Origin: a virus
IMG/VR virus record: IMGVR_UViG_3300023180_000116
Span: 1 to 44,503 of that record
Length of the DNA: 44,503 nucleotides
Strand: one strand, 5' to 3'
Shown one piece after another: positions 1 through 12,225 of the stretch. The notes under the pieces are model-generated. The model did no database searches and was not told where the DNA came from. It worked only from the letters and a program-made list of their open reading frames with translations. Position 1 is the first letter of the stretch; each line of letters begins with the position of its first letter. A program made the position numbers and the translations under genes.

Positions 1-68
1 GAAGCAAATCGTTCAGACCAACCAAAACGCTTTACCAACATGTCAAGATTCTTTTTGCGATTAATCAT
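1..68 (-). CDS. Partial small protein, cut by the left window edge
   Basis: An ATG at 68-66 opens a frame that stays open to base 1 (22 complete codons, beginning MINRKKNLDMLVKRF). It overlaps the stop codon of the preceding gene by a few bases, the junction style used across this genome. A GGAGG lies about a dozen bases upstream, longer than ideal. The visible part is basic and hydrophilic, with no family recognised. It could be the first residues of another small early-type protein; the rest lies outside the window, so function and length cannot be judged. Confidence 0.5.
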   Translation of the reverse strand, partial: MINRKKNLDMLVKRFGWSERFA

Positions 69-363
69 ACTCACAATCATATCCTCCAAACAATTCATTC
101 CAACATTCTGGATGAATACCATTCATCAACTGCTCACGCCTTTCACTAGGCATTTCAGGAAATGCTTCATGAACAAGTTTCCCATTCACCCAATTATTGT
201 AACCATTTTTGTCTACAATAACGCATCCATGACTTTCACAATGAAAGCAAATACCAGTGTAACAAACAGTAATATGATTTCCTGTTGCATCAACAATTTT
301 CCAAGCTTCATCAAGCATATCTTTTTCAGTAAGTTTGCTTTGATTTTCAACGTACATTTTCAC
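61..363 (-). CDS. Hypothetical protein with Cys/His-rich centre (100 aa)
   Basis: The start is GTG at 363, overlapping the upstream stop as GTGA, with GAGG 8 bases before it. The protein has a cysteine-rich centre (CFHCESHGC, about residues 37-45) followed by a C-terminal motif around RREQLMNGIHPECWNELFG. That C-terminal type recurs, as far as I recall, in small uncharacterised proteins of actinobacterial phages. The spaced Cys and His residues could bind a metal, but this is not shown. It sits in a run of three small genes downstream of the large non-coding region at 1019-1477 and is probably co-transcribed with them. Function unknown. Confidence 0.8.
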   Translation of the reverse strand: MKMYVENQSKLTEKDMLDEAWKIVDATGNHITVCYTGICFHCESHGCVIVDKNGYNNWVNGKLVHEAFPEMPSERREQLMNGIHPECWNELFGGYDCEYD

Positions 364-674
364 AACTTAATCCTCACTTCTTTCTGATTACGAACTGCTA
401 ATACATTCTTAGAACGAATACCTAACAATTCAATTTCTTTGTCAACTACACGATGCTGATTAGCAATATCATCAGCCTTATGCTTTCTCACAAACTCAAC
501 ATCATCTTTAGTCAAATCTGTGTAACCACGGCATTCTAATATCCCAGAAATATCGTATGTACTATCCCAACTCAATAACGGAGTCCATTTCGGCAAAGCT
601 TTCTTACGAGATGTAGTAATAACCTCATCTTCAGGAACAAGTTCAAACGTAAAAGATATCTTACTCTCTGACAT
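360..674 (-). CDS. Hypothetical protein (104 aa)
   Basis: ATG start at 674 with a strong GGAGG seven bases upstream. The product is soluble, rich in charged residues, with no membrane segment, signal peptide or recognised motif. It follows the 113-residue gene after only two bases and overlaps the next gene by four, so the three form one unit. A basic C-terminus (KNVLAVRNQKEVRIKL) ends the protein. I do not recognise a family. Size, position and lack of similarity to structural proteins are typical of accessory early phage proteins, but that is inference. Confidence 0.8.
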   Translation of the reverse strand: MSESKISFTFELVPEDEVITTSRKKALPKWTPLLSWDSTYDISGILECRGYTDLTKDDVEFVRKHKADDIANQHRVVDKEIELLGIRSKNVLAVRNQKEVRIKL

Positions 675-676
675 AA

Positions 677-1018
677 TCAGTCCTCCCGACTTGTAATCGA
701 AATAGTATGTTGACCAATACGAGCATTGCTAGGAATAGAAGCAGCACAAACAACATTGTAACGATAAGGCTTTTTCTGACGATTACGCTCAACGTAATCT
801 GTACCGTCAGGGTAATGCCTAGTCTTACCTTGAGTCGAAAGAAAACGCAATACAGAAGCAAAGTCTACATTACGACCTGAGTCGCAAATCAAAACAACAT
901 TCTGAACTGAGCTACCATCGCAAACTGTATGGATATCTACAACAATGCCATAGTTGTTGTTACCAACAATAAGCTCAGAACCTAAGTAATCCTGAGCACG
1001 TTCTAATAGTGTACGCAT
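677..1018 (-). CDS. Hypothetical protein (113 aa)
   Basis: ATG start at 1018 with GGGAG eight bases upstream. The sequence alternates beta-type segments (SELIVGNNNYGIVVDIHTV, NVVLICDSG) with polar loops, suggesting a small beta-rich domain. No catalytic motif is visible. It is the first gene after the 459-base repeat-rich region, so that region probably holds its promoter and control sites; an AT-rich TTATTATTAT lies about 25 bases upstream of the start as a possible -10. Function unknown. Confidence 0.8.
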   Translation of the reverse strand: MRTLLERAQDYLGSELIVGNNNYGIVVDIHTVCDGSSVQNVVLICDSGRNVDFASVLRFLSTQGKTRHYPDGTDYVERNRQKKPYRYNVVCAASIPSNARIGQHTISITSRED

Positions 1019-1082
1019 ACTACGAACTCCCTGGTAAAGATAATAATAAACTTACAAGAATAGACACAGCTAAAGCACGAAG

Positions 1083-1122
1083 AATAGTTGCACCTAACTC
1101 TAGTTGCGTTAGGTGAACTATT
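1083..1122. other. Long inverted repeat, CACCTAAC/GTTAGGTG core
   Basis: AATAGTT (1083-1089) and CACCTAAC (1091-1098) pair perfectly with GTTAGGTG (1108-1115) and AACTATT (1116-1122). This leaves one bulged G and a 9-base loop. On the plus strand the stem runs into TTTTT (1121-1125), so it could act as a terminator for antisense transcription. On the minus strand it is preceded by A residues and followed by no T-run, so it is not an ordinary terminator for the phage genes. The core is the same CTAAC/GTTAG motif repeated elsewhere in this region, which argues for a protein-binding site as an alternative. Confidence 0.7.
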
Positions 1123-1197
1123 TTTGAGAATAGCCGGGTCATGGTGTTTACACTATCAGTTTGGATTTAGCTTCGTGCACCTTTGGATAAGTTTAAT

Positions 1198-1380
1198 GTT
1201 AGCGACGTAAGAAAGGGTGGTCGAAAGCCTGGTCTGTTAGTTCGGCCATTGCCAGGTTTGTTAGTTGCGGAAATGAGCTAGCGTTAGTTCGGCTAAAAGC
1301 GCAGGGCGGCAAGTTAGGTTAGTCGCGGCACCGATGTTAGGTTAGATGCGGCGAGCGGCCCAGCGGGTGCGTTAGGTTAG
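1198..1380. repeat. Array of seven GTTAG direct repeats
   Basis: GTTAG begins at 1198, 1236, 1260, 1283, 1313, 1336 and 1371. The last three are doubled as GTTAGGTTAG (1313-1322, 1336-1345, 1371-1380). Most copies are followed within a few bases by a CGG or GCGG, giving an approximate unit GTTAG(GTTAG)NNGCGG. Start-to-start distances are 38, 24, 23, 30, 23 and 35 bases, mostly near two or three helical turns. Opposite-orientation CTAAC copies flank the array at 1094 and 1394. This resembles iterons or a multi-site operator more than chance repetition. Confidence 0.65.
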
Positions 1381-1452
1381 AACAGGTACGAAACTAACTC
1401 TAAATTTCATAAAAATTTTAATATATATTTTTGAACGGTAAAGCGTTCTCAG

Positions 1453-1470
1453 AAAAATACGAAATTCGTA
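1453..1470 (-). terminator. Weak AT-rich terminator candidate after the glycosyltransferase
   Basis: On the minus strand, just past the glycosyltransferase stop, TACGA-ATT-TCGTA (1458-1470) is followed by TTTTT (1453-1457). The stem is only five base pairs and AT-rich, so termination would be inefficient. A second small hairpin (GAACG/CGTTC, 1433-1449) follows but lacks a T-run. Placement at the end of a gene and before a long non-coding region supports a role. Confidence 0.35.
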
Positions 1471-1477
1471 ATCAATT

Positions 1478-2281
1478 TTAAGGAACAATAATTGTCTCTA
1501 AAAAGTCAATCATCTTGCCTTCAAATTCCATTCTACCTAAGTGAAGCATATCAACAGAAGCATCAACCCAAATATCTCCACCGAGTTTCTGCCAGTATCT
1601 ACAAAAACCGTAGTCCTCAGACAAAAGTCTACCATCATCGTCAATATAATCTGCAAAGAAGTGATAGGTCCACTTCTTTTCCTCTTCATTCAAAGAACCG
1701 GTATCATCTCTAAACTTCATCTGGGGGTAAGCCTCAATCATCTTTTCAATGACTTCACGCTTAATCAACATAAAGCCAGTACCCGCATCATGAATTTTTA
1801 GAGCACCATTATCTACTTCTACTTCACCCTTAGTACCTTGAATTGGATTCACAACGTATCTTAAACTCTTAGTCATAAGTTGTTCTACAGGCACACCGTC
1901 TTTTACCATCTTTTCAACTTTATTCCAGTTGATCTTCTTAATCGGATAAGATCCAGTAATAACATCTTTATCATGCCATAGCATTCTAATAATATCTTCG
2001 TAATCAAATCCGATGTCTGCGTCAATAAACATTATGTGAGTAAAGTCTGGGTTCGACATAAACTTAGCGACCAGGTTGTCTCTAGCTCTTGTAACCAAAG
2101 AATCAGAAACCGTGCTGATTGCAAAGTTCATATTCAACATATTAAATCCGTTAACCAGTTTAATCATTGAAGAAAAGTAAGGCTCGCTTACTTGCTTGTC
2201 ATAGCAAGGTGTTGCAATCATCGGATACCAATTAGCAATTTGCTCATGAGTAATTTCAACTTTTTGTTCAGTACGTTCCAT
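1478..2281 (-). CDS. Glycosyltransferase, GT-A fold
   Basis: Probable sugar transferase of 267 residues. The N-terminal half has the pattern of GT-A enzymes: a segment with TRARDNLVAKFM followed by HIMFIDADIGF, whose DAD is the metal- and nucleotide-sugar-binding DxD motif, then a segment beginning DVITGSYPIKK. There is no membrane anchor. I chose the ATG at 2281 over the overlapping GTG at 2284. A TGCTATAAT promoter lies so close that the message would start at or next to this ATG, giving a leaderless mRNA with no need for a ribosome site. The gene is bounded by a strong upstream terminator and a weak downstream one, so it is a single-gene unit. The acceptor could be host surface glycan, virion protein or DNA base; nothing here distinguishes them. 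Confidence 0.85.
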   Translation of the reverse strand: MERTEQKVEITHEQIANWYPMIATPCYDKQVSEPYFSSMIKLVNGFNMLNMNFAISTVSDSLVTRARDNLVAKFMSNPDFTHIMFIDADIGFDYEDIIRMLWHDKDVITGSYPIKKINWNKVEKMVKDGVPVEQLMTKSLRYVVNPIQGTKGEVEVDNGALKIHDAGTGFMLIKREVIEKMIEAYPQMKFRDDTGSLNEEEKKWTYHFFADYIDDDGRLLSEDYGFCRYWQKLGGDIWVDASVDMLHLGRMEFEGKMIDFLETIIVP

Positions 2282-2289
2282 CACAAGAA

Positions 2290-2298
2290 ATTATAGCA
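2290..2298 (-). promoter_or_regulatory. Extended -10 promoter, leaderless start of the glycosyltransferase
   Basis: Reading the minus strand, TGC precedes TATAAT (hexamer 2290-2295, TGC 2296-2298). Transcription would start near 2283, and the chosen ATG is at 2281, so there is room for at most one or two untranslated bases. No good -35 TTGACA is seen; its place is taken by the terminator T-run and stem. Terminator and promoter abut, isolating the gene. Confidence 0.65.
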
Positions 2299-2328
2299 AA
2301 AAAAAACCCCGACCCTTGCAGGTCGGGG
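2298..2328 (-). terminator. Strong intrinsic terminator
   Basis: On the minus strand a perfect 8-bp GC-rich stem (CCCCGACC/GGTCGGGG, 2307-2314 and 2321-2328) with a 6-base loop is followed directly by nine T residues (2298-2306). This is the best rho-independent terminator in the window. It ends the message of the 118-residue gene at 2369-2725, and probably of the terminase unit upstream if that reads through. Confidence 0.93.
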
Positions 2329-2368
2329 GAAAAACTTTATTTAGTTTTTATTGATTACTAAATGAATA

Positions 2369-2725
2369 TCACTTAGTAGCACGCTTTGAAGCAGGCTTTG
2401 CACCAGCCTCATTTGCAGTCACACCAAGTTCCTCAACTGATTCTGTAGAAACCTTCTCTGCTCCCATACGAGAAGCCTTGAAGTAAAGATTAGCCTGATC
2501 TTTGTCGTAGCGGATAGTGACTTTGAGATTCAATTTCTTAGCCTGTGCTCTAATGCGCTGTTGCATCGAATTGTAGGCATTGCCTGAATCAATACCACCA
2601 ATACAGAAACGCTCGCCCTTGCTAGCGGAATCTTCAAGCGCATTAATAATTGCTTGAAGTTCTTCAGAAGTTCTACCCTGACGAGTAATCTCTGGGAAAT
2701 GGTCTACCTTTGAAATGCTGAACAT
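2369..2725 (-). CDS. Hypothetical protein with basic C-terminal tail (118 aa)
   Basis: ATG start at 2725 with AGGAG six bases upstream. The first 80 residues look like a compact alpha/beta domain (GRTSEELQAIINALEDS, then IRAQAKKLNLKVTIRYD). The last 25 or so are a low-complexity basic tail (EAGAKPASKRATK), a feature often found in small nucleic-acid-binding proteins. It is alone between the GTTAG/CTAAC dyad region and a strong terminator, so it could be controlled through those sites or bind them. No family was recognised and the DNA-binding idea is inference. Confidence 0.8.
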   Translation of the reverse strand: MFSISKVDHFPEITRQGRTSEELQAIINALEDSASKGERFCIGGIDSGNAYNSMQQRIRAQAKKLNLKVTIRYDKDQANLYFKASRMGAEKVSTESVEELGVTANEAGAKPASKRATK

Positions 2726-2745
2726 TTAATGCTCCTAGTTTTGTG

Positions 2746-2760
2746 TCACCTTATTGGTGA
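2746..2760. other. Small inverted repeat in the leader of the 118-aa gene
   Basis: TCACC (2746-2750) and GGTGA (2756-2760) form a 5-bp stem with a 5-base loop just upstream of the ribosome site of the 2369-2725 gene. A second small stem (2776-2791, GGCCGG/CCGACC with one G-U pair in the minus-strand RNA) lies further upstream. Both may only be weak structure in a long leader. Confidence 0.35.
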
Positions 2761-2885
2761 ACTCTTTATGTATCTGGCCGGTGTCCCGACCACGAAATAA
2801 ACACTATCTCCGTTTTGACCACGATGTGTCACGAACGAGACTTTTTTACAAAATGTAAAATCAGGCTCATCGGGAGGTTTAGGCC

Positions 2886-2954
2886 ACCTAACGGAGCAAA
2901 CTAACACAAGTTTGTTAGATCGCTCTGTTAGGAAGCCGACTCCCGCTTTGTTAG
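2886..2954. other. Phased CTAAC/GTTAG dyad element
   Basis: CTAAC begins at 2888 and 2901, then GTTAG at 2914 and 2927, so four copies are spaced exactly 13 bases apart and arranged symmetrically; a fifth GTTAG is at 2950. The outer arms match over 10 positions with one mismatch (CTAACGGAGC 2888-2897 against GCTCTGTTAG 2922-2931), and CTAAC/GTTAG pair inside. As minus-strand RNA this folds into a long hairpin without a T-run. It lies directly after the 57-residue gene that follows terminase. A multi-subunit protein-binding site (operator, packaging or origin site) is the simplest reading. Confidence 0.7.
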
Positions 2955-2955
2955 A

Positions 2956-3129
2956 TCACTCTTCGATTTCTTGATCTGATTCTTCAAGAGCAGCGATGAG
3001 TTTATTAATAACACCTTTCTGTGCCATCATCTCAAGACGCAACTGAGAATTTTCCTGAGTCAATTCCTGAATCAATTGATTCGCATCAACCCTAGTCAAT
3101 TCCTCAATGTTTACAGATTCTCTAGCCAT
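2956..3129 (-). CDS. Small coiled-coil protein (57 aa) downstream of terminase
   Basis: ATG at 3129 with an AGAGGA ribosome site about five bases upstream; stop TGA at 2956-2958. The frame overlaps the 3' end of the terminase gene by 19 bases. The product is acidic and almost entirely helical in appearance (for example ELTQENSQLRLEMMAQK), with heptad-like spacing of Leu, Ile and Val, so it is probably a short dimeric coiled coil. No family recognised. Translational coupling to terminase suggests a role in packaging or simply late co-expression. Confidence 0.75.
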   Translation of the reverse strand: MARESVNIEELTRVDANQLIQELTQENSQLRLEMMAQKGVINKLIAALEESDQEIEE

Positions 3130-4841
3130 AATGATTCCTCTTTCTTTGTATTCATATTTTCAAACTGACCAGTTTCCCTGGACAGAACTTGTGTATTGCC
3201 AAAATCTGGCATATCTTCATCTTCGATATCGAAGTCTGCTTTAGGATACATCAATTCAATATCAATTTCTTGATCCATCCCAATATTTTTTATACAACCA
3301 GCAACTGCGCCAGCAAGCGCATCCGCTAAGTCTTTTGAACCCGTAGATGGGTGATCGATCTTGTTGTTTCCAAACAACTTCAATTTCAAAAGTTCTTCTT
3401 CAACCAAAAGCTCGTTCCAGTATCCACGAATTCTTGTATCGTATATCGCAGTCAATAGTGTATCATAATCAGACTTCTTCACGCTGTGAAAGTCAGCATT
3501 AATACCCTGTGCTCTCAAAGACTGAATCATTTCTACAGACTGCCAGCGGTCAAATGTGACAAGACCAACCTGAAACTTCCTACACAAATCAACGATCATC
3601 TGACGCACAGCGGCAAAGTTGATTTCATTACCAACACTTGCCTCCCAAGAATAAATCAAATCCATATTCACTACAGGAAGATTCTCAACACCCATTGAGG
3701 TTTGGATTTCTTTGAACCCACCACTAGAGACCATACACAGAGCCGCTCTGTCTCGTTTCAATGCAAGGTCAACATGAATGAACCTGGTTTTCCCATCCTT
3801 ATTGTTAAACCAAGGTTTAAACGTACCGTCATCCTCATTGACAGGATCATCTGAATAATGAAAAGCTTTCCTTACTAAATCAGGATCTCTAAAGTAAGCA
3901 TCAATCATGTTTGGTGGTTCACACTCAAAACGCATCTTTGCCTCAATAGGATTTCTAATATATTCAGATTCCAACTGCTCTCTTTCAATTGTTGGATTGA
4001 CTTCCCAAGTAGCAGCTTTGATAGTCCAAGTCTTAGGCTCGGTTTTTTCATTAGCATCAGTAAATCTTGTTTCAATAAAGTCACCCTTATATCTAGGGAA
4101 TGAAAGCAGAATCACCTTACCTACTTCTGGGAAACGAGACATCACAGACAACTTGCTCATATTGTAAATAGCAGAAGCAGAGCCTTTTGACCTAGTTTCT
4201 CCCTTAAGTTCGGCATCGGTTTTAAACGCAGCAATTTCGTCAAGAATAACTGTCATCACTTCGTACCCCTCCCAACCTTCACTTTCAGAGTGACCAGAGA
4301 AGCATCGAACTGGACGAGAAAAGAAAAAGATTTCCGAAACTCTAGGTTCAAAACCAACTTCATTAAAGAACGGCGAAGACAAAAGCAAATTCTTTAAAGG
4401 CTCAAAAAACACACGCTGAGCCTGTTGAGCATTCACAGCTAGATTCAGCAAGTCGATGTAAACACCATTAGCCTTACCAAAATAAGTTAAAGGATCTCTG
4501 AGGCAATGCATTAAGTATGCAGTATAAGCAATTGAAATCCTAGCGCAGTGATCCTTTCCTGAACCCTTTCCAAGCATACAGATCACTTCATTGTCTGTAT
4601 ACTTATTGTAATACGCTTCACCCTCTTCCATTCCTATCATTTTCTGAAGAGTATGTTTCTTAAAAATTTGTGTACTGTGACGGACAATTTCCAACTGAAT
4701 ATCTGACAGAGGAGGCAAACCCAAATACTTCTTGTCTTGCACGAACGTCTGTATAGATACCGGTTCCATCTCAAGTTCTTCTTGAGACAGCAGTTTATCA
4801 AAATCTTCAAAGTTTAGGTTTACACCAAAGAAATCACTCAT
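3111..4841 (-). CDS. terL: Terminase large subunit
   Basis: DNA-packaging motor and headful or cos nuclease, 576 residues, a usual length. The ATPase domain shows Walker A GKGSGKD at 91-97 and Walker B VILDE at 198-202 with the catalytic Glu202. The RNase H-like nuclease domain has its expected acidic residues: Asp358 in IHVDLA, Asp431 in VTFDRWQS and Asp504/Asp508 in DLADAL. Start ATG at 4841 follows GGAGA with good spacing. The putative small subunit is immediately upstream. Unusually, the pair sits downstream of the replication genes, tens of kilobases from the head genes at the other end of the window. It should act at the capsid portal, cutting concatemers and translocating DNA. Confidence 0.96.
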   Translation of the reverse strand: MSDFFGVNLNFEDFDKLLSQEELEMEPVSIQTFVQDKKYLGLPPLSDIQLEIVRHSTQIFKKHTLQKMIGMEEGEAYYNKYTDNEVICMLGKGSGKDHCARISIAYTAYLMHCLRDPLTYFGKANGVYIDLLNLAVNAQQAQRVFFEPLKNLLLSSPFFNEVGFEPRVSEIFFFSRPVRCFSGHSESEGWEGYEVMTVILDEIAAFKTDAELKGETRSKGSASAIYNMSKLSVMSRFPEVGKVILLSFPRYKGDFIETRFTDANEKTEPKTWTIKAATWEVNPTIEREQLESEYIRNPIEAKMRFECEPPNMIDAYFRDPDLVRKAFHYSDDPVNEDDGTFKPWFNNKDGKTRFIHVDLALKRDRAALCMVSSGGFKEIQTSMGVENLPVVNMDLIYSWEASVGNEINFAAVRQMIVDLCRKFQVGLVTFDRWQSVEMIQSLRAQGINADFHSVKKSDYDTLLTAIYDTRIRGYWNELLVEEELLKLKLFGNNKIDHPSTGSKDLADALAGAVAGCIKNIGMDQEIDIELMYPKADFDIEDEDMPDFGNTQVLSRETGQFENMNTKKEESLWLENL

Positions 4842-4869
4842 ACTTTCTCCGTTTTGCCTTTATTCACCT

Positions 4870-5478
4870 TTATGGGCGCGTTTCCTCATCAATCGGCTGA
4901 GCATCCATGACTGTCCTGTCAGGGAACTCATCTTCTTGACCCATAAGTTCAAAAGCCAGAGACAACTCGTTTCTAACCTCATCGGCAATTTCAGGATGCT
5001 TAGAGATAACATCTCTCAAGATTCTTGAAAGAATCTGATTAACATTTTCAGCTTTCTGCATTCTCTGAATATATTCACCGTCAGCAGAAGATCCCGTAGT
5101 CATCAACTTATGAAGCTGCGCCTTCTTTGTCGCTAAATCAGAAGCAAGTTTCAAAGCAGCAATTCTGTGCTGAACCATACCATGATCAGTTGCAATAGAC
5201 ACAGTTTCCCAAGCCTCTTTTGTCAACTCATCGAACTCATTCAAAGCCTTGATGGTATTGAACTGAATTCTTTCCAAGAAGTACGGATCATTGTCCGCCT
5301 GCTTAGCAATGACGTTCTTGTATTCGTCAATGTAAGACTTGACTTCACCAACACCCAAAGACATTAGGGAAGCAATCTCATGATTGGAATAACCTTTGAT
5401 ATGAAGGATTCCAACTTTTTCAATATCTTTTATTTTTTCGACTATACCGCCTGAGACTGATCTCTCAATATTTTCCAT
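4870..5478 (-). CDS. Probable terminase small subunit (HTH protein)
   Basis: A 202-residue protein directly upstream of the large terminase gene. Residues about 20-55 (IKGYSNHEIASLMSLGVGEV) look like a helix-turn-helix. The central part is long and helical, as expected for the oligomerisation region of small terminase subunits. The C-terminus is acidic (EDEFPDRTVMDAQPIDEE). ATG at 5478 has AAGGA five or six bases before it and overlaps the glycosyltransferase end by 37 bases. The assignment rests on position, size and HTH-plus-helix layout, not on a recognised family signature; a transcription regulator is the main alternative. Confidence 0.6.
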   Translation of the reverse strand: MENIERSVSGGIVEKIKDIEKVGILHIKGYSNHEIASLMSLGVGEVKSYIDEYKNVIAKQADNDPYFLERIQFNTIKALNEFDELTKEAWETVSIATDHGMVQHRIAALKLASDLATKKAQLHKLMTTGSSADGEYIQRMQKAENVNQILSRILRDVISKHPEIADEVRNELSLAFELMGQEDEFPDRTVMDAQPIDEETRP

Positions 5479-6536
5479 ATACGATCCTTATATTCTTGGA
5501 CAACATTATGCCAAGAATAATCCTTATGAATAATTATAGCACCTTCCAATGTATGTTGCTTAACTTCTTCATAATTATCAACAACGTAATGCATCTTGTC
5601 AACAAGATCATCCATACTAGGTTTAGCCCATTTACCACCAGTCTCGTAGATACCGCTCATTCCTTCATTAGACCACTCAAAATCCAAAGGCACAGACAAC
5701 TCTGCATACTCGGTACAAGCAGTAGCATTAGTGCAAATAGTAGGGGTTCCACAAGCAATAGCATCAAAAGGAATCATCCCCCAACCCTCCCCCATAGTAG
5801 GGTACAAAAGACAATGAGCAGACCTATACAAGTCAGCAAGATCAGGCTCAGACAATTCCCAATCAATAACCTGAATCCTGTCATGATTAGTGATCGCACC
5901 GTGATTCATTCCAGAATCCCGTATGCGGGCATCAGGAGGCCCCATAGACTTAACAATCAACCGAAAGTCCTTCCGATGCCCATACGTCCTCATAAAAGCA
6001 TCTACAGCCATCTGGGTGTTCTTCCTAGTTGACGGACTACCAACATGAAGAAACGTAAAAGGCTCATCAGGAATCCAAGAGTTTGACCAAAACAAATCAG
6101 ATTCAATTCCTAACTTAAAAGAATGAACATTCTCATGTCCGGTATTTTCTTTAAAGACATCACCAGCCCACTTCGAAGTAGTCCAAATCTCATCACACTC
6201 ATTCAACCTAGGAATCCAAGACCCCGGCATCTTTGTGGTTTCCCAATAAGAAAAACCAACATTGTAACAATCAGCAAGCTTAAAATCTACGGGCAAGCAG
6301 TTATTAACAAGGACATCACCCTGTTGGACTGGCATTCTTGGTTCAAGCACTAAACCATCCTGCATAGAAACAAAAATGTCAAACTCTTTGCTTCTGTCTG
6401 AAATAAGAAAATCCTCTGGCTCAGACACAGGTAGACCGGCGTGTCTAAGACCAGAGGAAATCCTATATGATGCGTAACCGTATCCGTCAGCCTTACTCTT
6501 TGACAGTGCTCTCCAAAACAATCGGTTCGTCATCAT
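5442..6536 (-). CDS. Glycosyltransferase family 4 (GT-B fold)
   Basis: About 364 residues with a GT-B layout. The C-terminal domain has the family hallmark EGWGMIPFDAIACGTPTI, whose acidic residues contact the nucleotide sugar, preceded by FTFLHVGSPSTRKNTQMAVD, a typical start of the second Rossmann domain. The ATG at 6536 (MMTNRLFW) is preferred to the upstream ATG at 6563 because AAGG lies six bases before it and family members start near this point. No membrane segment. It overlaps the small terminase gene, so glycosyl transfer is co-expressed with packaging. Target unknown: virion glycosylation or host surface change are both possible. Confidence 0.9.
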   Translation of the reverse strand: MMTNRLFWRALSKSKADGYGYASYRISSGLRHAGLPVSEPEDFLISDRSKEFDIFVSMQDGLVLEPRMPVQQGDVLVNNCLPVDFKLADCYNVGFSYWETTKMPGSWIPRLNECDEIWTTSKWAGDVFKENTGHENVHSFKLGIESDLFWSNSWIPDEPFTFLHVGSPSTRKNTQMAVDAFMRTYGHRKDFRLIVKSMGPPDARIRDSGMNHGAITNHDRIQVIDWELSEPDLADLYRSAHCLLYPTMGEGWGMIPFDAIACGTPTICTNATACTEYAELSVPLDFEWSNEGMSGIYETGGKWAKPSMDDLVDKMHYVVDNYEEVKQHTLEGAIIIHKDYSWHNVVQEYKDRIWKILRDQSQAV

Positions 6537-6612
6537 TGTTAACCTTATACAAGGTGTATTCACCTAGTTCAGAAATCTTTTCCAAAGACTCCTCAACACG
6601 TTTGATTTTCAT
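6493..6612 (-). CDS. Possible 39-residue protein overlapping the glycosyltransferase start
   Basis: ATG at 6612 is preceded by a purine run (GGGAGGGGG) that is an unusually strong ribosome site, though placed very close to the start. The frame ends with TAA at 6493-6495, inside the beginning of the glycosyltransferase gene. The product is highly charged (MKIKRVEESLEKISELGEY...), hydrophilic and of no recognised family. Its translation would carry ribosomes onto the glycosyltransferase start at 6536, so it could act mainly as a coupling leader. Codon content looks coding, but the short length keeps confidence moderate. Confidence 0.45.
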   Translation of the reverse strand: MKIKRVEESLEKISELGEYTLYKVNNDDEPIVLESTVKE

Positions 6613-6703
6613 CCCCCTCCCTTCTGTCCTTGAAGGTGTAAAAGTTCAGCATGGAAATCCTATCTGATATTTTCTCCGTTTTCAGGAGTTTGTAAATTTT
6701 TCT

Positions 6704-7462
6704 TTAGATTATTTCTCTATCAAAAACTAATTTTTTACCAATAGAAACAGCTTGGGTATGAAGTTCATCATAATTATATCCATGCTCTTTCGTGTACTGA
6801 ACTCTGTAATTAACCCAACCATCTACAGCCGCCCAGAACTTCTTATCCGTCACCCGCTCCAGTTCTTGCAATTCCTCAACAGTCAAAAGGAAAGAAAGAA
6901 CACCGAGAGGCATGTACACAACCATGTCATACCCCTCATTTTTGCCAGCCGCATATTCTTTAAGAAGATCCTGAAAGGACTGAACAATCTTCTTAACCGC
7001 TGGACCAGTATAGTAATCAATGCTACCATTAGCATTTCTCAATCTAGGGCAGAAATCATCAACCGTTGTAATCGTTCCAACAGTTCGACAAATCATTGGT
7101 CTATAACCGTAAATAGTGCAACCGCCTTTCCAGAAAGCGCACTTCTTTTCGGTTTCACCACCAATCTGCCATGTCTCATCAAACATTGCTTCCTTGAGGG
7201 ACTCAATAACCCCATCCATCCACTCATCAGCAAACTCACGACCCTTATCTTCCAAGTAAAGGTAATACTCCTGACGAAGACGGAAAGCAATATTTGCACA
7301 CTCACCCATATGAATAGTCAACCCAATAGTACAACACTTGCCAGAACCAAGACACTTGTACTCTGTCTCGTTTTGTTGAGCCTCTAGCATACGGACCTGA
7401 TTGTAAATCATATCCAGTTTTGCAAAAGTTGTAATGTCCTTACCAGTTACAGATCTTCTCAA
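6704..7462 (-). CDS. YkgJ-type cysteine-cluster protein
   Basis: A 252-residue protein with two cysteine groups. The first is CLGSGKCC at residues 37-44 plus Cys55; the second is Cys108, Cys115, RPMIC at 121-125 and Cys138. This spacing with the YGYRPMICR segment matches the YkgJ/UPF0153 family of proposed zinc or iron chelators, whose biochemical role is unsettled. The TTG start at 7462 overlaps the previous stop as TTGA and has AAGGA eight bases upstream. Related genes recur in phages, often near replication or terminase genes. A redox-sensitive or metal-binding role is inferred. Confidence 0.8.
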   Translation of the reverse strand: MRRSVTGKDITTFAKLDMIYNQVRMLEAQQNETEYKCLGSGKCCTIGLTIHMGECANIAFRLRQEYYLYLEDKGREFADEWMDGVIESLKEAMFDETWQIGGETEKKCAFWKGGCTIYGYRPMICRTVGTITTVDDFCPRLRNANGSIDYYTGPAVKKIVQSFQDLLKEYAAGKNEGYDMVVYMPLGVLSFLLTVEELQELERVTDKKFWAAVDGWVNYRVQYTKEHGYNYDELHTQAVSIGKKLVFDREII

Positions 7463-7755
7463 CGCCCCATTCCTTTCTTTTTCATATTATTAGCTTTACG
7501 CATTTCTCTACGCTTTCTTTCGACAGCCTGCTGCATAGGCGACTTAGGTCTGCGCATACTAGTACTTGATAGGTTTCTACCCTTGCCTCGGTACTTCAAA
7601 AGATCGTACTTCTTAACCCAGTTGTACACAGCCTGAGGAGTGACTTCAATGTTGTAGCCGTCCTTCAGCCTTTTACAAATGTCACTAAGATTCATCCTCT
7701 TTTTGACATAATGCTCGTACAACCACTGTTTATCTTTGTAGGGTTCCGAAGCCAT
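7459..7755 (-). CDS. Small HTH DNA-binding protein
   Basis: About 98 residues beginning MASEPYKDKQWLYEHY. The segment MNLSDICKRL followed by VTPQAVYNWVKKYDLLKYR is a homeodomain-like helix-turn-helix of the type found in phage terminase small subunits and transposase N-termini. The C-terminal third is strongly basic (ERKRREMRKANNMKKKG). I prefer ATG 7755 to an upstream ATG at 7779: neither has a ribosome site, but a TGGTATTAT sequence ends seven bases before 7755 and would give a leaderless message. It could be a regulator or an alternative small terminase candidate. Confidence 0.75.
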   Translation of the reverse strand: MASEPYKDKQWLYEHYVKKRMNLSDICKRLKDGYNIEVTPQAVYNWVKKYDLLKYRGKGRNLSSTSMRRPKSPMQQAVERKRREMRKANNMKKKGMGR

Positions 7756-8317
7756 GATCAATATAATACCATAGAGCAATACCGATTGCGTCGTTTATGT
7801 CTTCGTCTTCCGTACTAAAACCGACTTGTTTATCAATAATTTTCTTAACACGATCTTTGCGCTCCTGAGTCAGTCTTTTCTGAATACCCTTCGAACCGTA
7901 CTTATCCTCAATGGCTTTCTTATCAGCCTTTGATACATTTTTGTATCCAATCCGATTCTTCCAGATAAGAGGATTGCAATCGCACATGCTATAACAATAT
8001 TCATCTAGCGTTCCCCATGAATATCCAATAATATAAGAGATAATCCGACTTGACTGAAAGTTCTGAATATAAACCGACTGCTCAATTACGCCATCCTTAA
8101 ACTGGTAATCTTCCCATACATCTTGAATACCTTTCCTAATTGCACGAAACTTGTTATCAATCTCTTTGCTGTCTTTAAAATCAATTTTTCCAGTACCAGC
8201 AACACTAAACTTATTCCTATCAAGATCAACAACACACCAGGCTAGAGAGTGAGAAGAGGGATCTATAGCAATTAGCCTAGTTGCCTTAGCAGCAGACACT
8301 AATTTACTTATACTCAT
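7730..8317 (-). CDS. ruvC: RuvC-like Holliday junction resolvase
   Basis: A 195-residue RNase H-fold nuclease. The four expected acidic residues are visible: Asp19 in LIAIDPSSHSLAW, Glu79 in DGVIEQS, and Asp173/Asp176 in DINDAIGIALW near the C-terminus. I chose ATG 8317 because AAGGAG sits seven bases upstream; the longer reading from 8353 has no such site and adds an unlikely N-terminus. It probably cleaves four-way or branched junctions in replicating phage DNA, which would otherwise block packaging. It lies in a run of nuclease and recombination genes. Confidence 0.88.
   Translation of the reverse strand: MSISKLVSAAKATRLIAIDPSSHSLAWCVVDLDRNKFSVAGTGKIDFKDSKEIDNKFRAIRKGIQDVWEDYQFKDGVIEQSVYIQNFQSSRIISYIIGYSWGTLDEYCYSMCDCNPLIWKNRIGYKNVSKADKKAIEDKYGSKGIQKRLTQERKDRVKKIIDKQVGFSTEDEDINDAIGIALWYYIDHGFGTLQR
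7763..7771 (-). promoter_or_regulatory. Extended -10 candidate, leaderless start of the HTH gene
   Basis: On the minus strand TGG precedes TATTAT (hexamer 7763-7768). The predicted first transcribed base is about 7756 and the ATG is at 7755. The site lies inside the end of the RuvC-like gene, so it could be chance, but the same TGGTATTAT recurs at 40242-40250 and 42681-42689. Confidence 0.4.
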
Positions 8318-8627
8318 CTCGAAGCTCCTTTTCATCCCAGCCCCAAGACACAAGCCTTTTTATGTATCTCTCTCTTTTACAAGCTTCACATATATCTTCT
8401 TTATTGTAAGAAGAAAGGATGGTGCTACAAGAAGAAGTAGCGCATACACGCTTTTTGTTTTTATTCTCCTTTTTCTTGTAATAGTTTTCAAGCAGCCTCT
8501 TGTTGGTAACAATTCGTCTGCAATCAGGGGAGCAAAACACCGCATTGTACGTTTTTGGAAGAAATTCCTCTCTACATTCCGGATTTTTGCACCTGATAGG
8601 ATCAAAACGGCTCGTACTCCTCTTCAA
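8304..8627 (-). CDS. Small zinc-binding protein
   Basis: About 107 residues with two cysteine groups: CKNPECREEFLPKTYNAVFC with CSPDC following, then CATSSC and CEACKRE. Each could bind one zinc ion, as in treble-clef or HNH-derived zinc fingers common in phage genomes, and no HNH catalytic His-Asn-His is seen. The start is uncertain: TTG at 8627 is the only in-frame candidate upstream of the first cysteine, and it has only a weak purine-rich site. It overlaps genes on both sides. A nucleic-acid-binding accessory role within the recombination cluster is inferred. Confidence 0.75.
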   Translation of the reverse strand: MKRSTSRFDPIRCKNPECREEFLPKTYNAVFCSPDCRRIVTNKRLLENYYKKKENKNKKRVCATSSCSTILSSYNKEDICEACKRERYIKRLVSWGWDEKELRDEYK

Positions 8628-9366
8628 TATTTTCTTTCTCCGACCAGCACAATTCCGCTAGATCGCATCTAGCACAGTGCTTCGAAGTACGCTTATATGG
8701 CCGCTTTGGTTTTTCGTTGTCTTCAACAGCCTTATAGATCTTACGATACTTCTTAAATAGTTTATCAAGAAATACGTCGTCACGCTCGATATAGATAGGT
8801 AAAATTTGTTGATTGTTTTTATTCTCATAAATAACAAAACCGCTATCTAAATTCAAACAATGCATGTACAAATTAGCCTGACGAACATGATCATCAGAAG
8901 GCTTATGAGACAACTGCCTATACTGAAACCCCTCCGTAGAAATAGACTTCAGTTCAATAAGTTTATGACCATCAAGATCAATAATTCCATCAGCAGTACC
9001 CTGAATAGGTGGATCATCGTTGCTCACCGGCAACTCTTCTGCAACAAGAATGCCCATCTCGCGCAGATAAGAATACAACCTATCATGCACAGCATGTCCA
9101 TTATCAAAGATACGATATGTCTGAGGTGAGAAAGAAGGTGTATACGTCACACCTTCAAACATGTAATACCAATACCTAGCACACTGATTCGTAGAACTTG
9201 GTCTAAAGTAATCAACCTTCTTATAGATAGGCTCATTACGCTTAGCGATATGAACATCTACTGCCTCGCAGAACATATCCTCAAGTTGAGAACCAGTCAA
9301 AGGCTCACTCTCAACAATAGCCTCTTTCTCCTGAGGTTCCGATTTCAATGCCTTTAACGATTTCAT
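8602..9366 (-). CDS. Cas4/RecB-like PD-(D/E)XK nuclease with Fe-S cysteines
   Basis: 254 residues. The nuclease core shows GTADGIID (Asp126), IELKS with Glu138 and Lys140, and QANLY (Gln163, Tyr167), the order found in Cas4 and AddB-type nucleases. One cysteine before the core (Cys62) and three near the end (CARCDLAELC, Cys231, 234, 240) match the four cysteines that hold a 4Fe-4S cluster in this family. ATG 9366 has GGAG four bases upstream. Without cas genes it is probably a DNA-end-processing exonuclease acting with RecA (10368-11285) in recombination or replication restart. Confidence 0.9.
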   Translation of the reverse strand: MKSLKALKSEPQEKEAIVESEPLTGSQLEDMFCEAVDVHIAKRNEPIYKKVDYFRPSSTNQCARYWYYMFEGVTYTPSFSPQTYRIFDNGHAVHDRLYSYLREMGILVAEELPVSNDDPPIQGTADGIIDLDGHKLIELKSISTEGFQYRQLSHKPSDDHVRQANLYMHCLNLDSGFVIYENKNNQQILPIYIERDDVFLDKLFKKYRKIYKAVEDNEKPKRPYKRTSKHCARCDLAELCWSEKENIEEEYEPF

Positions 9367-9683
9367 TGTGCTCCATTCCTAGCCGACAGTTTAAGAACAT
9401 TGATGTTCTCACCCAAAGCTTCATACATTGTTTTCCAAATATCATTAACAAACTTATCTTCATTGTCCATAAGTTGGGACTTGCGCTTAAACATTTGCGA
9501 CTTAACAATCATCATTGTTCTAAAAGCAGCAAGTTGATTAGCGTATCGGATAGCCTGACCACCAACATAATGATCAGGTCTCTGGATAATGTCTTCGACA
9601 ATCTTCATGCATTCAATAAACTCTTCAGCATGGTCACCCATCATATTGGTGACTGTATCTATGTCTATATAAAAATTACTCAA
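9363..9683 (-). CDS. Hypothetical helical protein (106 aa)
   Basis: TTG start at 9683 overlaps the previous stop as TTGA, with AGGAA about five bases upstream. The product is predicted helical by eye, with a central basic segment (MFKRKSQLMDNEDKF) and no cysteines or catalytic motif. It overlaps the Cas4-like gene by four bases, so the two are translated together, and may assist that nuclease. I do not recognise the family. Confidence 0.75.
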   Translation of the reverse strand: MSNFYIDIDTVTNMMGDHAEEFIECMKIVEDIIQRPDHYVGGQAIRYANQLAAFRTMMIVKSQMFKRKSQLMDNEDKFVNDIWKTMYEALGENINVLKLSARNGAQ

Positions 9684-9931
9684 TTATGTTTCCTGTCTAG
9701 GATAATAGAAAACAAATCTGTCTTCCGTAGTGACGGGGGGTGGAACAAATGCCATGTTAGCACAGCCCACCCGATGAATGTGGGAAAAGAGGTGCTCTTC
9801 CTAAAAAGACCATTCTTAAAAGCAGTAGACATCGTTTGATGCTTGCTAGATAGCGCCCAGTAGTCATATATAATAACCACAAGAGCCGTCATAAGCCATC
9901 CTAAAATACCGTGCTTCTCAATCTTCCTCAT
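9680..9931 (-). CDS. Small membrane protein (83 aa)
   Basis: From ATG 9931 the product begins MRKIEKHGILGWLMTALVV and contains one clear N-terminal membrane segment (about residues 9-25). A second weaker hydrophobic stretch (FPTFIGWAVLTWHLF) comes later, and the C-terminus is polar. No ribosome site is strong; translation may be coupled to the overlapping 57-residue gene. It sits among soluble recombination genes, which is odd for a membrane protein. No family recognised; lysis timing or superinfection exclusion would be guesses. Confidence 0.65.
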   Translation of the reverse strand: MRKIEKHGILGWLMTALVVIIYDYWALSSKHQTMSTAFKNGLFRKSTSFPTFIGWAVLTWHLFHPPSLRKTDLFSIILDRKHN

Positions 9932-10091
9932 AATTACTTCGACGTTCAAGGATGATATCCTCAGCACGTTGAAGGAAACCGTATACAAGTTCTTCTTCAG
10001 GGATGTCCTCGTAGTATGGCATCATACTGAGCACACCAACAACATAATAAAAACCCGTTTCATACAGTTCCTCATTCGTAATCTGAGTCAC
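9918..10091 (-). CDS. Small acidic protein (57 aa), GTG start
   Basis: The frame runs from GTG at 10091 to TGA at 9918-9920, with AAGGAG seven bases upstream of the GTG, one of the better ribosome sites in this block. The product (MTQITNEELYETGFYYVVGV...) is acidic and helical, ending RAEDIILERRSNYEED. It overlaps the resolvase-like gene upstream and the membrane protein gene downstream and fills what would otherwise be a gap of about 140 bases. No family recognised. Confidence 0.72.
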   Translation of the reverse strand: MTQITNEELYETGFYYVVGVLSMMPYYEDIPEEELVYGFLQRAEDIILERRSNYEED

Positions 10092-10371
10092 GGATCAACT
10101 CCTTAAATACTTCCCAATCAATTATAGCAACTTTAGTATCAGAATCTTCGCCTAATACAACAGAAATGCAAGGATATCTGTATTGACTTCTCCAAGCATC
10201 TTTGCGATGCTTTATCCACGCAGAACGACTAAGAGTGAAAGAACTACCATTGTGCTTATAGTCAAGAAGGAAACGATGAAAAGTAGCATCTCCTTTTCTA
10301 AAACCTCTACCAGAGTTCTTAACTGGCTTTGCCTTGTCTCTTTTCGCTTCTTGACCTTCATCTCTTTTCAA
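10072..10371 (-). CDS. PD-(D/E)XK nuclease, RecU/Hjc-like resolvase candidate
   Basis: 99 residues. The active-site layout of PD-(D/E)XK resolvases is visible: Glu8 in an N-terminal helix, Asp28 in RKGDAT, and Asp37-x-Lys39 in FLLDYKHNG, followed by SFTLSRSAWIKHRKDAWRS. That last segment resembles the conserved part after the catalytic strand in small archaeal and phage Hjc-type proteins. TTG at 10371 overlaps the recA stop (TTGA) and has AAGGAG eight bases upstream. It could cut Holliday junctions or flaps. Together with the RuvC-like gene this gives the phage two unrelated junction nucleases. Confidence 0.75.
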   Translation of the reverse strand: MKRDEGQEAKRDKAKPVKNSGRGFRKGDATFHRFLLDYKHNGSSFTLSRSAWIKHRKDAWRSQYRYPCISVVLGEDSDTKVAIIDWEVFKELIRDSDYE

Positions 10372-11285
10372 CTCACCAACTCCTTGTAAATCTCATTGAC
10401 CTGATCTTCAGTCAACTCGATATTAGAAGTACCGTTCCACTTCTCATCGCCATAAGAATACCAAGCACCACGACGTTGAATGATGTCATTCTCAACAGCC
10501 ATCTCAATCAACTCACGCTTGACATCAATGCGACCCTCTTGCGGAAGAACGTAGTAGTAGCCTTGCGTACCAATCGTAGGCAACTGCTTTGTTTTCTCAA
10601 TAGTCCACGTTGCACGCTGACTCATAATCTTATTGGTACGATCCTCACGCTCCATCTCCTTTTGAGACATTGACAAGAACAACTTAATAATATTGTGCAT
10701 GTTGTGATGAACCGTATTACCCATCTTTGCTTTCATCACAGCGTACATACCACTAAGATCGACCGTTTGATGTGCTACAAAGAGCATGATGTTCCGCTCC
10801 TTATGCAAATGGTTGACAAGCTTCTGCAAGAAGTAGCCTTGTGAACGAGCCTGCAAACCCATAGCCTTACCGCCATCAGGCTTGTCATAAAACTCTTCCT
10901 TGACAATATTGGACAAACTGTCAAACAAAAAGATGTGCTTCTCATCAGGATGATTCAGATAACCAATCAGGTGTCTAAGGATATCCTCAACAACAGTAGA
11001 CTGAATCAGCACAACGTCATCAACATTGATACCGCACTTAGCCGCATACTCTTCTGAGTACGAATACTCGGAGTCAACAATGATTGGTCGATAACCCATC
11101 TTTTGCGCCTCAGCAAGAATCCTAAAGCACATGGTTGTCTTACCAACAGAAGGTGTACCCCAAAACAAATGTGTAGCACCTGTGTACAAGCCTCCACCCA
11201 AAGCACGATTCAAACCGATGCTGGGTGTAGGAATAATCTCATGAGTAGGGACAAGATCGCCCTTCCTCTTATCAATAAATAACAT
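10368..11285 (-). CDS. recA: RecA/UvsX-type recombinase
   Basis: 305 residues. The RecA core has Walker A GTPSVGKT at 43-50, a Walker B-like HIFLFDS around Asp122, and the HLFWG and VAHQTVDLSG segments typical of phage RecA-like proteins. It lacks the C-terminal domain of bacterial RecA, as UvsX-like proteins do. ATG 11285 has a strong AGGAGG four bases upstream. It should form filaments on single-stranded DNA and drive strand exchange. Its neighbours are a resolvase and a Cas4-like nuclease, making a compact recombination module. Confidence 0.92.
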   Translation of the reverse strand: MLFIDKRKGDLVPTHEIIPTPSIGLNRALGGGLYTGATHLFWGTPSVGKTTMCFRILAEAQKMGYRPIIVDSEYSYSEEYAAKCGINVDDVVLIQSTVVEDILRHLIGYLNHPDEKHIFLFDSLSNIVKEEFYDKPDGGKAMGLQARSQGYFLQKLVNHLHKERNIMLFVAHQTVDLSGMYAVMKAKMGNTVHHNMHNIIKLFLSMSQKEMEREDRTNKIMSQRATWTIEKTKQLPTIGTQGYYYVLPQEGRIDVKRELIEMAVENDIIQRRGAWYSYGDEKWNGTSNIELTEDQVNEIYKELVS

Positions 11286-11286
11286 A

Positions 11287-12225
11287 TTACCTCCTAGAAT
11301 CTAGAATTTCGTTAACCATTTTTTCGAACCAGTCATCGTCAATCTCAACATGCCTTCTCACATCAAGACTGTCAATAAACTTAACCTGATCACCCTGCAA
11401 AATTACATTGTGTACGGCGAGGTCTCCATGAATCATATCACCTTTCATGAAGTCAGGTTTCTGCTTCTCACACATTTCAACAATTTTCTCAGGAGAAGGA
11501 AGAACCCCACCCATCTCCATCCATGTCTTCAGATTGATACCACGATACCATTGCCTAACACTACCGGACTTCACATACTCTTTATGATAATAATCTGAAT
11601 GAATATTCAAAGCAGTGTCACGCAAAGGTGTACCAATATAAGACTTAGCAATTTTTCTCTTGCTATGCTCCGAGACAAACAAGATGCGCTCAGAGCCATC
11701 TAAATGAGATTTAGGTTTGCCGAGCACCTTTGCATTCTTCGGGACATAAGTATCCTTAACAATATTTTGACCACAGGCTGGACCTTCTAAAGCAATTTCA
11801 GAGATCATCACATCACCTAAAGATTTAAAAGCCTCCAAAATCTCTTCATATGAGCCACCCTCAACATGATGCATCACTGACAGAGCAAGCACCAAGTCAA
11901 AATGCTCAACCTCAGACAACTCTTGAATATCCTGAAGAGTAAACTTCTTATCTAGCAAGATAATCCTGTCCTGCTTGTTCTCATCCAGAACCTGCTTCAA
12001 CCATTCCGTATAAATGCTTTCGACAGCAACCACAGTGCAATCGTATTCCTCAACAAGACGCAAAGAATAATAACCAAGATTTGCACCAAAGTCTAAAACA
12101 GTAAACGGACGTTTCCATCTATCCAGTTGAGGTTTCATCATTTCCCACCTCAATCCACAATCACGGATACCAGGCTGTTTGACTTGACCATTCACCCAAA
12201 TATCTTGATACTGTTCCAATGTCAC
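11287..12225 (-). CDS. SAM methyltransferase fused to a kinase-like domain
   Basis: 312 residues. Residues 1-150 form a Rossmann methyltransferase: FTVLDFGANLGYYSLRLVE (SAM-binding motif I, about 41-59), an acidic end of strand 2 at VAVES (Glu69), and FDLVLALSVMHHVEGG (about 109-124). The C-terminal part carries a kinase catalytic loop, HGDLAVHN (His266, Asp268, Asn273), and a DFG-equivalent Asp285 in VKFIDSLD. The region between is short for a full N-lobe. The order methyltransferase-kinase is that of WbdD-type O-antigen chain terminators, which methylate and phosphorylate a glycan end. GTG 12225 overlaps the dnaE stop. Here it could modify a glycan made by the phage glycosyltransferases or a small molecule. 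Confidence 0.8.
   Translation of the reverse strand: MTLEQYQDIWVNGQVKQPGIRDCGLRWEMMKPQLDRWKRPFTVLDFGANLGYYSLRLVEEYDCTVVAVESIYTEWLKQVLDENKQDRIILLDKKFTLQDIQELSEVEHFDLVLALSVMHHVEGGSYEEILEAFKSLGDVMISEIALEGPACGQNIVKDTYVPKNAKVLGKPKSHLDGSERILFVSEHSKRKIAKSYIGTPLRDTALNIHSDYYHKEYVKSGSVRQWYRGINLKTWMEMGGVLPSPEKIVEMCEKQKPDFMKGDMIHGDLAVHNVILQGDQVKFIDSLDVRRHVEIDDDWFEKMVNEILDSRR

Follow-up and report, generated by a model that had tools for sequence, protein, structure and literature searches.

Repeated control sites in described phages

In cluster K mycobacteriophages, SAS/ESAS are repeated control elements found before many genes, and in SPbeta, a temperate Bacillus phage, the repeat elements constitute the site set for one master repressor, MrpR. 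A close functional parallel to the locus described here is provided by the stoperators of cluster A mycobacteriophages such as L5 and Bxb1. These 13-mer sites are described as numbering more than 20, and up to 30, per genome, as being oriented along transcription and as varying in motif among relatives, and they are proposed to block both initiation and elongation (PMC9283540, PMC6550527). Intergenic repeats of halovirus HF2 reportedly showed promoter activity (PMC8707807), and a host-regulator model has been published for CtrA-dependent phages (PMC9437464).

Cultured cousins of the phage studied here are found in the Stanwilliamsviridae, whose terminal repeat contains small genes, nearly all on the minus strand, after plus-strand genes that include WhiB. 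The terminal repeat measures 12,199 bp in StarPlatinum and 12,244 bp in Coruscant, and in each phage both copies are identical. In StarPlatinum, CCGCCCCGG was counted 16 times in 1-11,400 and twice in 11,401-16,000; the other copy holds it 18 times, whereas the 102 kb counted elsewhere (without 80,001-83,886) hold none; in Yaboi it occurs 17 times in the first 11.6 kb, the stretch examined. Coruscant lacks CCGCCCCGG and carries instead GCCCGGCGCC, located between a terminator and a promoter-like stretch, 15 times per repeat and 0 times in the 108 kb between.

Herein, a viral DNA of 44,503 nucleotides (IMG/VR record IMGVR_UViG_3300023180_000116, positions 1-44,503; hereafter the window) was analysed with respect to a non-coding array of the pentamer GTTAG. 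The array is interpreted, with fair rather than high confidence, as a dense operator cluster that would belong to a network for one putative phage-encoded, co-evolving, sequence-specific DNA-binding regulator. It resembles cluster A stoperators in that one short site recurs many times (13 copies in the array, 5 in a second cluster and 138 in the early region of a longer contig, G001) and in a motif that differs between related phages, here in step with lineage. Orientation is less clear-cut, a predominant direction along transcription being seen here in class 1 (GTTAG) only. The array differs from stoperators in that half-sites are arranged in doublets or palindromes and also lie inside genes, in that one phage holds more than 130 sites, where the figures given for stoperators range from "more than twenty" up to "as many as 30", in that the sites occupy one early region plus one or two outposts rather than being spread along intergenic gaps, and in that the proteins scanned include no recognised repressor or lysogeny gene. 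In view of the different layout and form of the sites, and with no repressor found, membership is not claimed; the network would work in a similar way. SAS/ESAS and the HF2 repeats are likewise repeated control elements before many genes, but they are fixed elements and are not known to form half-site arrays that change between relatives. One site set per phage regulator, as proposed here, is also the arrangement of SPbeta, a temperate Bacillus phage, and MrpR. No earlier description of this array type is known to us from a limited literature search, in which the GTTAGGTTAG matches listed concern eukaryotes. The statement in an earlier note, made from the sequence alone, that no phage element of this form had been described was nevertheless too strong in view of the stoperators (PMC9283540, PMC6550527).

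Structure and statistical support of the array

Positions 1083-1398 of the window contain 11 copies of GTTAG on the plus strand (1108, 1198, 1236, 1260, 1283, 1313, 1318, 1336, 1341, 1371 and 1376) and two of CTAAC, that is, GTTAG on the minus strand (1094 and 1394). The core array (1198-1380, plus strand) is composed of four single copies (1198, 1236, 1260 and 1283) and three GTTAGGTTAG doublets (1313, 1336 and 1371). The earlier note had counted seven GTTAG places in one orientation, three of them doubled, which agrees with the site listing, although the copy at 1108, in the other arm of a hairpin, was missing from that count. The array lies between a 268-aa phrog_1574/glycosyltransferase-like gene (1478-2284, minus strand), which ends just before it, and a 113-aa gene (677-1018, minus strand), the first gene downstream along transcription. 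Since the long ORFs around it are on the minus strand, the sense strand of the flanking genes reads CTAAC. No ORF of at least 70 aa overlaps the array, as expected from its description as non-coding.

The inverted copies previously placed at both ends, one of them within a 15-bp hairpin, were also recovered. The hairpin (1083-1122), directly before the 113-aa gene, forms the downstream edge of the array; on the minus strand it folds with 15 pairs and one bulge (z -4.9), with a CTAAC/GTTAG pair in the stem. At the opposite end, the inverted copy that opens the array (1394-1398, minus strand) stands beside the AT-rich element TATATTAAAAT (1415-1425, minus strand), which marks the upstream edge and may act as a promoter. 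The corresponding ATAYTAAA word precedes the cluster in 43 of 48 relatives (from the best 80 of 95 loci), compared with 14 of 1194 background stretches. Other ATAYTAAA copies in the window lie mostly inside genes, and the one inspected, at 21.7 kb, has no site cluster beside it. Sigma-70-like sites near the array were no more frequent than expected by chance, and a search of the window with Rfam at gathering score gave 0 matches.

The GTTAG cluster is real. When the window was shuffled 300 times with dinucleotides preserved, no 305-bp stretch contained more than 6 sites, compared with 13 in the array, and 5000 shuffles of the array region itself gave a maximum of 7. With a CDS set of our own choice, site density in the window was 0.79/kb in coding and 6.67/kb in non-coding DNA, so that the motif is much rarer in coding regions. 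All 18 non-coding sites are located within the array or in a second cluster (2888-2954; three GTTAG and two CTAAC), which has the terminase gene on one side and the 118-aa gene on the other.

Other properties assigned to the array fared less well. Its GC content is raised locally (0.47 at 1141-1425, compared with 0.32-0.43 in most 190-base windows of 1-3000) but does not exceed that of all the rest of the window, values of 0.46 being reached at 2376-2565 and 2756-2945 and of 0.47-0.50 in parts of the structural region (15.5-17.5 kb). A CGG said to follow many copies lies at varying distance from the sites, and it is not characteristic of 81 single sites in the related early region. The spacings in the array (38, 24, 23, 30, 23 and 35) do not follow the whole-turn pattern that had been suggested; same-strand spacings in the early region display a weak 10.5-bp phasing (R 0.10 over 241 distances, with about 0.06 expected).

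Conservation of place and change of motif

Relatives were defined as loci with a homologue of the 118-aa protein, drawn from many metagenomes, and the best 80 of 95 were kept. Forty-eight of these 80 loci extend 1750 bp past the start of the 118-aa gene. The expectation that the array recurs at the same place in related contigs was borne out, in that 47 of the 48 syntenic loci (best 80 of 95) carry class sites in the 551-bp stretch at the array spot, whereas only 1 of 593 background stretches of the same loci holds a class site. The motif itself is GTTAG in 5 loci, TAACGTTA in 12 and TGTAANNTTACA in 30 (again from the best 80 of 95); the 47 include several near-identical loci and are not 47 independent cases. 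The sole exception, L054, has near matches only.

Within the GTTAG class, the array is unchanged in L001-L003 and present in diverged form in L005, L015 and L016. The latter three are 77-82% identical to the window in long flanking DNA matches (with one 97% stretch in L005) and contain 12, 18 and 15 same-strand GTTAG copies, respectively, at the array place, those of L015 and L016 including copies 12 bp apart. All three retain the layout GTTAG-TTTCG-N-CTAACCTAAC around the 1394 copy and have 4-7 sites at the spot of the second cluster. At that spot, 17 examined loci of other classes have 0 copies of TAACGTTA and 0-3 TGTAA-type half-sites. At the array place, other relatives carry TAACGTTA, or TGTAATATTACA and TGTAATCTTACA.

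Searches by pattern were also carried out in viral contigs. The pattern CTAACCTAAC-N3-33-CTAACCTAAC was found in at least 119 stretches; among the 79 inspected (L084-L162), related arrays were seen only in L089 (= L005) and L131 (= L016), with L015 also listed, and from L163-L201 the loci inspected were L173, L177, L179 and L181. The pattern GTTAGTTTCG-N4-10-CTAACC occurred in 32 stretches, 7 of which hold arrays of at least five copies (L089, L015, L131, L173, L177, L179 and L181). Many unrelated phage contigs, including many of L085-L162, have in common a stretch like ctatccttacctaaccttacctaacctg, perhaps a repeat of replication genes, and a ctatccttacctaacc stretch common to many of the CTAACCTAAC-pattern matches is presumably a coding repeat of Firmicutes-type replication genes.

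Among cultured phages, three records match window 1-8000, solely over a 66-bp terminase stretch, and none matches the 118-aa protein or the one early protein searched. In a scan of 84,980 bacterial and archaeal species (one genome each) with the 118-aa protein, 162 stretches matched a pattern and 0 encode a relative.

The presumably early site-rich region and its agreement with the array

Over the part compared (window 1-7725), the 70,302-bp contig G001 shows 99.97% identity to the window; it extends about 25.8 kb past the left end of the window, so that the array lies at its 43.1 kb. About 19 kb past the array, a site-rich region begins in which 4.73 kb (62.12-66.85 kb) contain 138 sites (99 GTTAG and 39 CTAAC), compared with a shuffle mean of 11.8 and a maximum of 23. 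The 18.5 kb between array and early region (43.5-62.0 kb) contain 7 sites, 0 of them intergenic. The region consists of small genes, mainly on the opposite strand, with long control regions, and its GC is 0.47-0.50, compared with 0.36-0.39 at 44-62 kb. In class 1, CTAAC runs along transcription by 99:39 in the early region and by 11:2 in the array. Just past the site-rich region (G001 67.6-69.6 kb), a dCMP/cytidine deaminase-type protein (PF00383; L228:5601-6209) and an N6/N4 DNA methyltransferase (PF01555; L228:6554-7600) were observed.

Judging from gene order, the site-rich region probably corresponds to the Stanwilliamsviridae terminal repeat. The middle module of G001 contains a WhiB gene, and the terminase large subunit of the window (3111-4841, minus strand) shares about 40% identity with its Stanwilliamsviridae counterpart; no small subunit was recognised. 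The small genes are presumably expressed early in infection, a label taken from this synteny. Similar to the region described here, the Stanwilliamsviridae repeat has small genes, most there with their own terminator, repeat and promoter-like stretch, a genus-specific repeat and a comparable gene order. Unlike here, the repeat in Stanwilliamsviridae is GC-rich, each intergenic gap having roughly one copy, placed immediately upstream of the promoter-like stretch, and StarPlatinum and Coruscant have no repeat copy near the terminase gene. If right, the operator reading would point to the Streptomyces phages StarPlatinum, Yaboi and Coruscant as cultured relatives in which to test for a similar layout.

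The place of the array (the late place) and the early place share one motif class on seven contigs, which represent about five independent lineages. G001 has GTTAG at both, and G013 and G015 (99.8% identical where compared) have CTAACGTTAG at both; in these two contigs, whose early regions are those read for the TAACGTTA class, 2 copies of TAACGTTA at the late place are followed, 21.5 kb on, by 34 and 41 in the early region. TGTAATATTACA is found in G017 at 79.4 kb and at 99.5-102.8 kb, and in G025 at 97.4 kb and 7.8-13.7 kb, which are 19.0 kb apart if the contig ends join. Variants of TGTAANNTTACA mark both places in G029 and G030, which are identical over the part compared: their early regions contain class-4 sites, and the late place, at a distance of about 19.7 kb, has TGTAATCTTACA, a variant of the class-4 early consensus TGTAARYTTACA. 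In L246, TAATCTTACA was found six times.

Across 23 records, the class motifs are restricted to their own group except for one or two copies elsewhere. CTAACGTTAG is found in G013 and G015 only, TGTAATATTACA in 7 records of its own class, and TGTAARYTTACA in 5 records of its own class and once in G026. Of GTTAGGTTAG, G001 has 20 copies, G007 (= L016) has 4 and eight further records have 1-2 each. A single GTTAGGTTAG is present in each of several class 3 and 4 phages (G018, G020, G023, G025, G029, G030 and G031), roughly 6-7 kb past the late array (G031 left out), and in G017 (85625-85652) GTTAGGTTAG forms an inverted pair 8 bp apart.

Site enrichment and avoidance within genes

In the window, CDS hold 35 sites, compared with 59.9 +/- 6.4 in synonymous shuffles, and the site is thus avoided there. 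In eight hand-picked early CDS of G001, 36 sites were counted against 11.9 expected (maximum 20 in 1000 synonymous shuffles). With automatic ORF sets, which may contain false genes, the matched half-site reached z values of 9.9 in G001, 4.9 in G015, 7.0 in G026, 7.4 in G031 and 2.6 in G017, where the 27 matched half-sites lie inside the shuffle range of 10-28. The mismatched half-site in the same five early regions gave z -1.8 to +0.1, and the matched half-site in six late or middle sets z -4.2 to +0.1. The matched values therefore indicate that sites are favoured throughout the early region, within genes too. Outside it, avoidance was clear in the window (z -4.2) and G001 (-3.4), moderate in G030 (-2.4) and weak or absent in G015 (-1.3), G013 (-1.0) and G017 (+0.1).

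Sense-to-antisense ratios in early CDS of other classes, whose motifs are palindromic, were 4:9, 20:30, 11:16 and 22:22. Orientation bias is therefore confined to class 1, and a direction-dependent block would not be general. In G015, early genes are preceded by a tight layout of palindromic sites with an inverted repeat, TTTAGT, a half-site, CTTTATG, a half-site and the start codon, of which G001 control regions display a looser version. The word TTTATG, in many cases preceded by TTTAGT, is repeated among the sites ahead of small genes in G001, G015, L237, L240 and L248, although its spacing to the sites differs between classes (L237, L240 and L248 being unlike G015). These words are putative promoter elements.

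A proposed operator network and its alternatives

The sites cluster at control regions, match at two distant places, switch together between clades and are avoided elsewhere in this phage, which is the basis for reading them as an operator network. We infer that a protein binds the sites, that it is encoded by the phage and that its effect is repression or a block of elongation. In such a mechanism, the regulator of this phage would recognise CTAAC/GTTAG as its half-site, occupying many clusters around the small, presumably early genes as well as the single cluster that divides the structural module from the middle module. Occupancy of promoter-proximal and transcribed DNA would shut down or gate transcription there, and regulator and sites would change jointly as phages diverge, giving each clade its own motif. 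If this is true, an environmental phage group runs its early genes via a dense, clade-private operator code that can be read from sequence at two places, and a natural series becomes available for joint change of specificity in a regulator and more than 100 sites.

A bolder scenario, rather doubtful as a whole, concerns uncultured, apparently lytic actinobacteriophages in which the RGR family (see below), amplified in the region that it controls, would coat the early terminal region via more than 100 half-sites lying both in and between genes, silence it in the course of infection and gate the boundary of structural and middle modules 20 kb away. The co-evolving, clade-private code would then be immunity-like without lysogeny and may exclude superinfecting relatives. 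No integrase or resolvase (PF00589, PF00239) was found in 12 of 12 records, which are possibly fragments, the Lsr2 family was absent from the same number of records, and classical lysogenic immunity is therefore not supported; nor was an immunity repressor recognised among the proteins scanned. One G001 early protein gave a very weak Lsr2-like PHROG match (E 0.16).

The binder could instead come from the host, as an activator, a repressor or a nucleoid protein, the motif classes then reflecting different hosts. CtrA-dependent phages offer a published precedent (PMC9437464), and the relatives come from many metagenomes. This explanation is nevertheless unlikely, as motif class follows phage lineage at two places at once and a host silencer with more than 100 sites in the early region would presumably harm the phage. 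An equally unlikely proposal is that the sites mark or organise the terminal region, where they would anchor packaging, the formation of ends, partition or DNA condensation, and that binding runs through genes too. The enrichment of matched half-sites within early CDS, the gene order resembling that around the Stanwilliamsviridae terminal repeat and the limitation of genus-specific repeats to the terminal repeat in StarPlatinum and Coruscant all favour it; the recurrence of sites across most control regions between genes, instead of at a single boundary, and a separate cluster kept 19-21 kb away do not.

It is quite improbable that the sites are iterons of a replication origin next to an AT-rich unwinding element. 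Direct repeats do adjoin TATATTAAAAT, and the 12-bp-spaced copies of L015 and L016 would suit iterons. However, class 3/4 loci hold 1-2 full sites there, mostly 75-125 bp from the AT-rich element, identical sites in many early intergenic regions do not fit a single locus, and no replication initiator was recognised among those neighbouring proteins scanned. A lasting turn in GC skew at the array was not found either; the skew has the same sign on either side and only the array itself is G-rich. Accordingly, of the origin, multi-site operator and packaging functions raised in the earlier note, the operator is the one best supported by comparison, as identical sites are found around the presumably early genes at a distance of 19-21 kb, the two places agree in motif class and the skew shows no lasting sign change, while origin and packaging fit less well.

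Phage T4 RegB acts on GGAG in early mRNA. A comparable RNA-level signal, in which CUAAC in early mRNA is recognised or cut, would account for the sense bias in class 1, the presence in coding RNA and the avoidance in window late genes, but is very hard to reconcile with the palindromic DNA words of the other classes, which lack sense bias in CDS, and with the further location of doublets and inverted pairs ahead of the putative promoter words of early genes.

The RGR-motif family as candidate regulator

For the operator network, the RGR-motif family, including the 118-aa protein (2369-2725, minus strand), a candidate binder, is the lead candidate only, and its assignment as the regulator is a weaker inference than the network itself. 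By hhalign (probability 93.5, E 2.4e-7), the 118-aa protein is homologous to small early proteins with an RGR motif, of which two were found in G001 (94 and 88 aa), three in G015 and more in L237-L240; the genes of these early proteins are located inside or beside site-rich regions. Their identity within motif classes averages 58, 67 and 46% (1, 3 and 66 pairs, the last ranging over 28-95), compared with 29, 33 and 38% between classes, a likeness that could simply reflect phage kinship. The core of the 118-aa protein is invariant across motif classes, unlike what is expected of a motif-specific binder. No RGR homologue was found in the stretches of StarPlatinum, Yaboi and Coruscant searched.

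Structure models of the RGR proteins reached pLDDT 73 (118-aa protein, 72.8) and 77, and Foldseek gave no match below E 0.001 for either (best E 0.07 and 0.12). For the 118-aa model, a VIA comparison scored IF3-C, R3H, SpoVS, Alba-like and designed proteins at Z 5.0-6.7, within the range of common arrangements, so that no fold is claimed; a winged-helix reading at first glance was also dropped, the models being without a firm match to a known DNA-binding fold. The 118-aa gene may be transcribed on its own, given a terminator-like hairpin with a T run (2307-2328, minus strand) between it and the 268-aa gene.

Past the late array, weak matches to the RGR HMM were observed at L008:7020-7346 (E 0.049), L032:6781-7104 (E 0.017) and L035:6470-6892 (E 0.008). 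The gene at this spot may be a further distant RGR member, and the 104-aa gene of the window (360-674) is, by position only, perhaps its counterpart.
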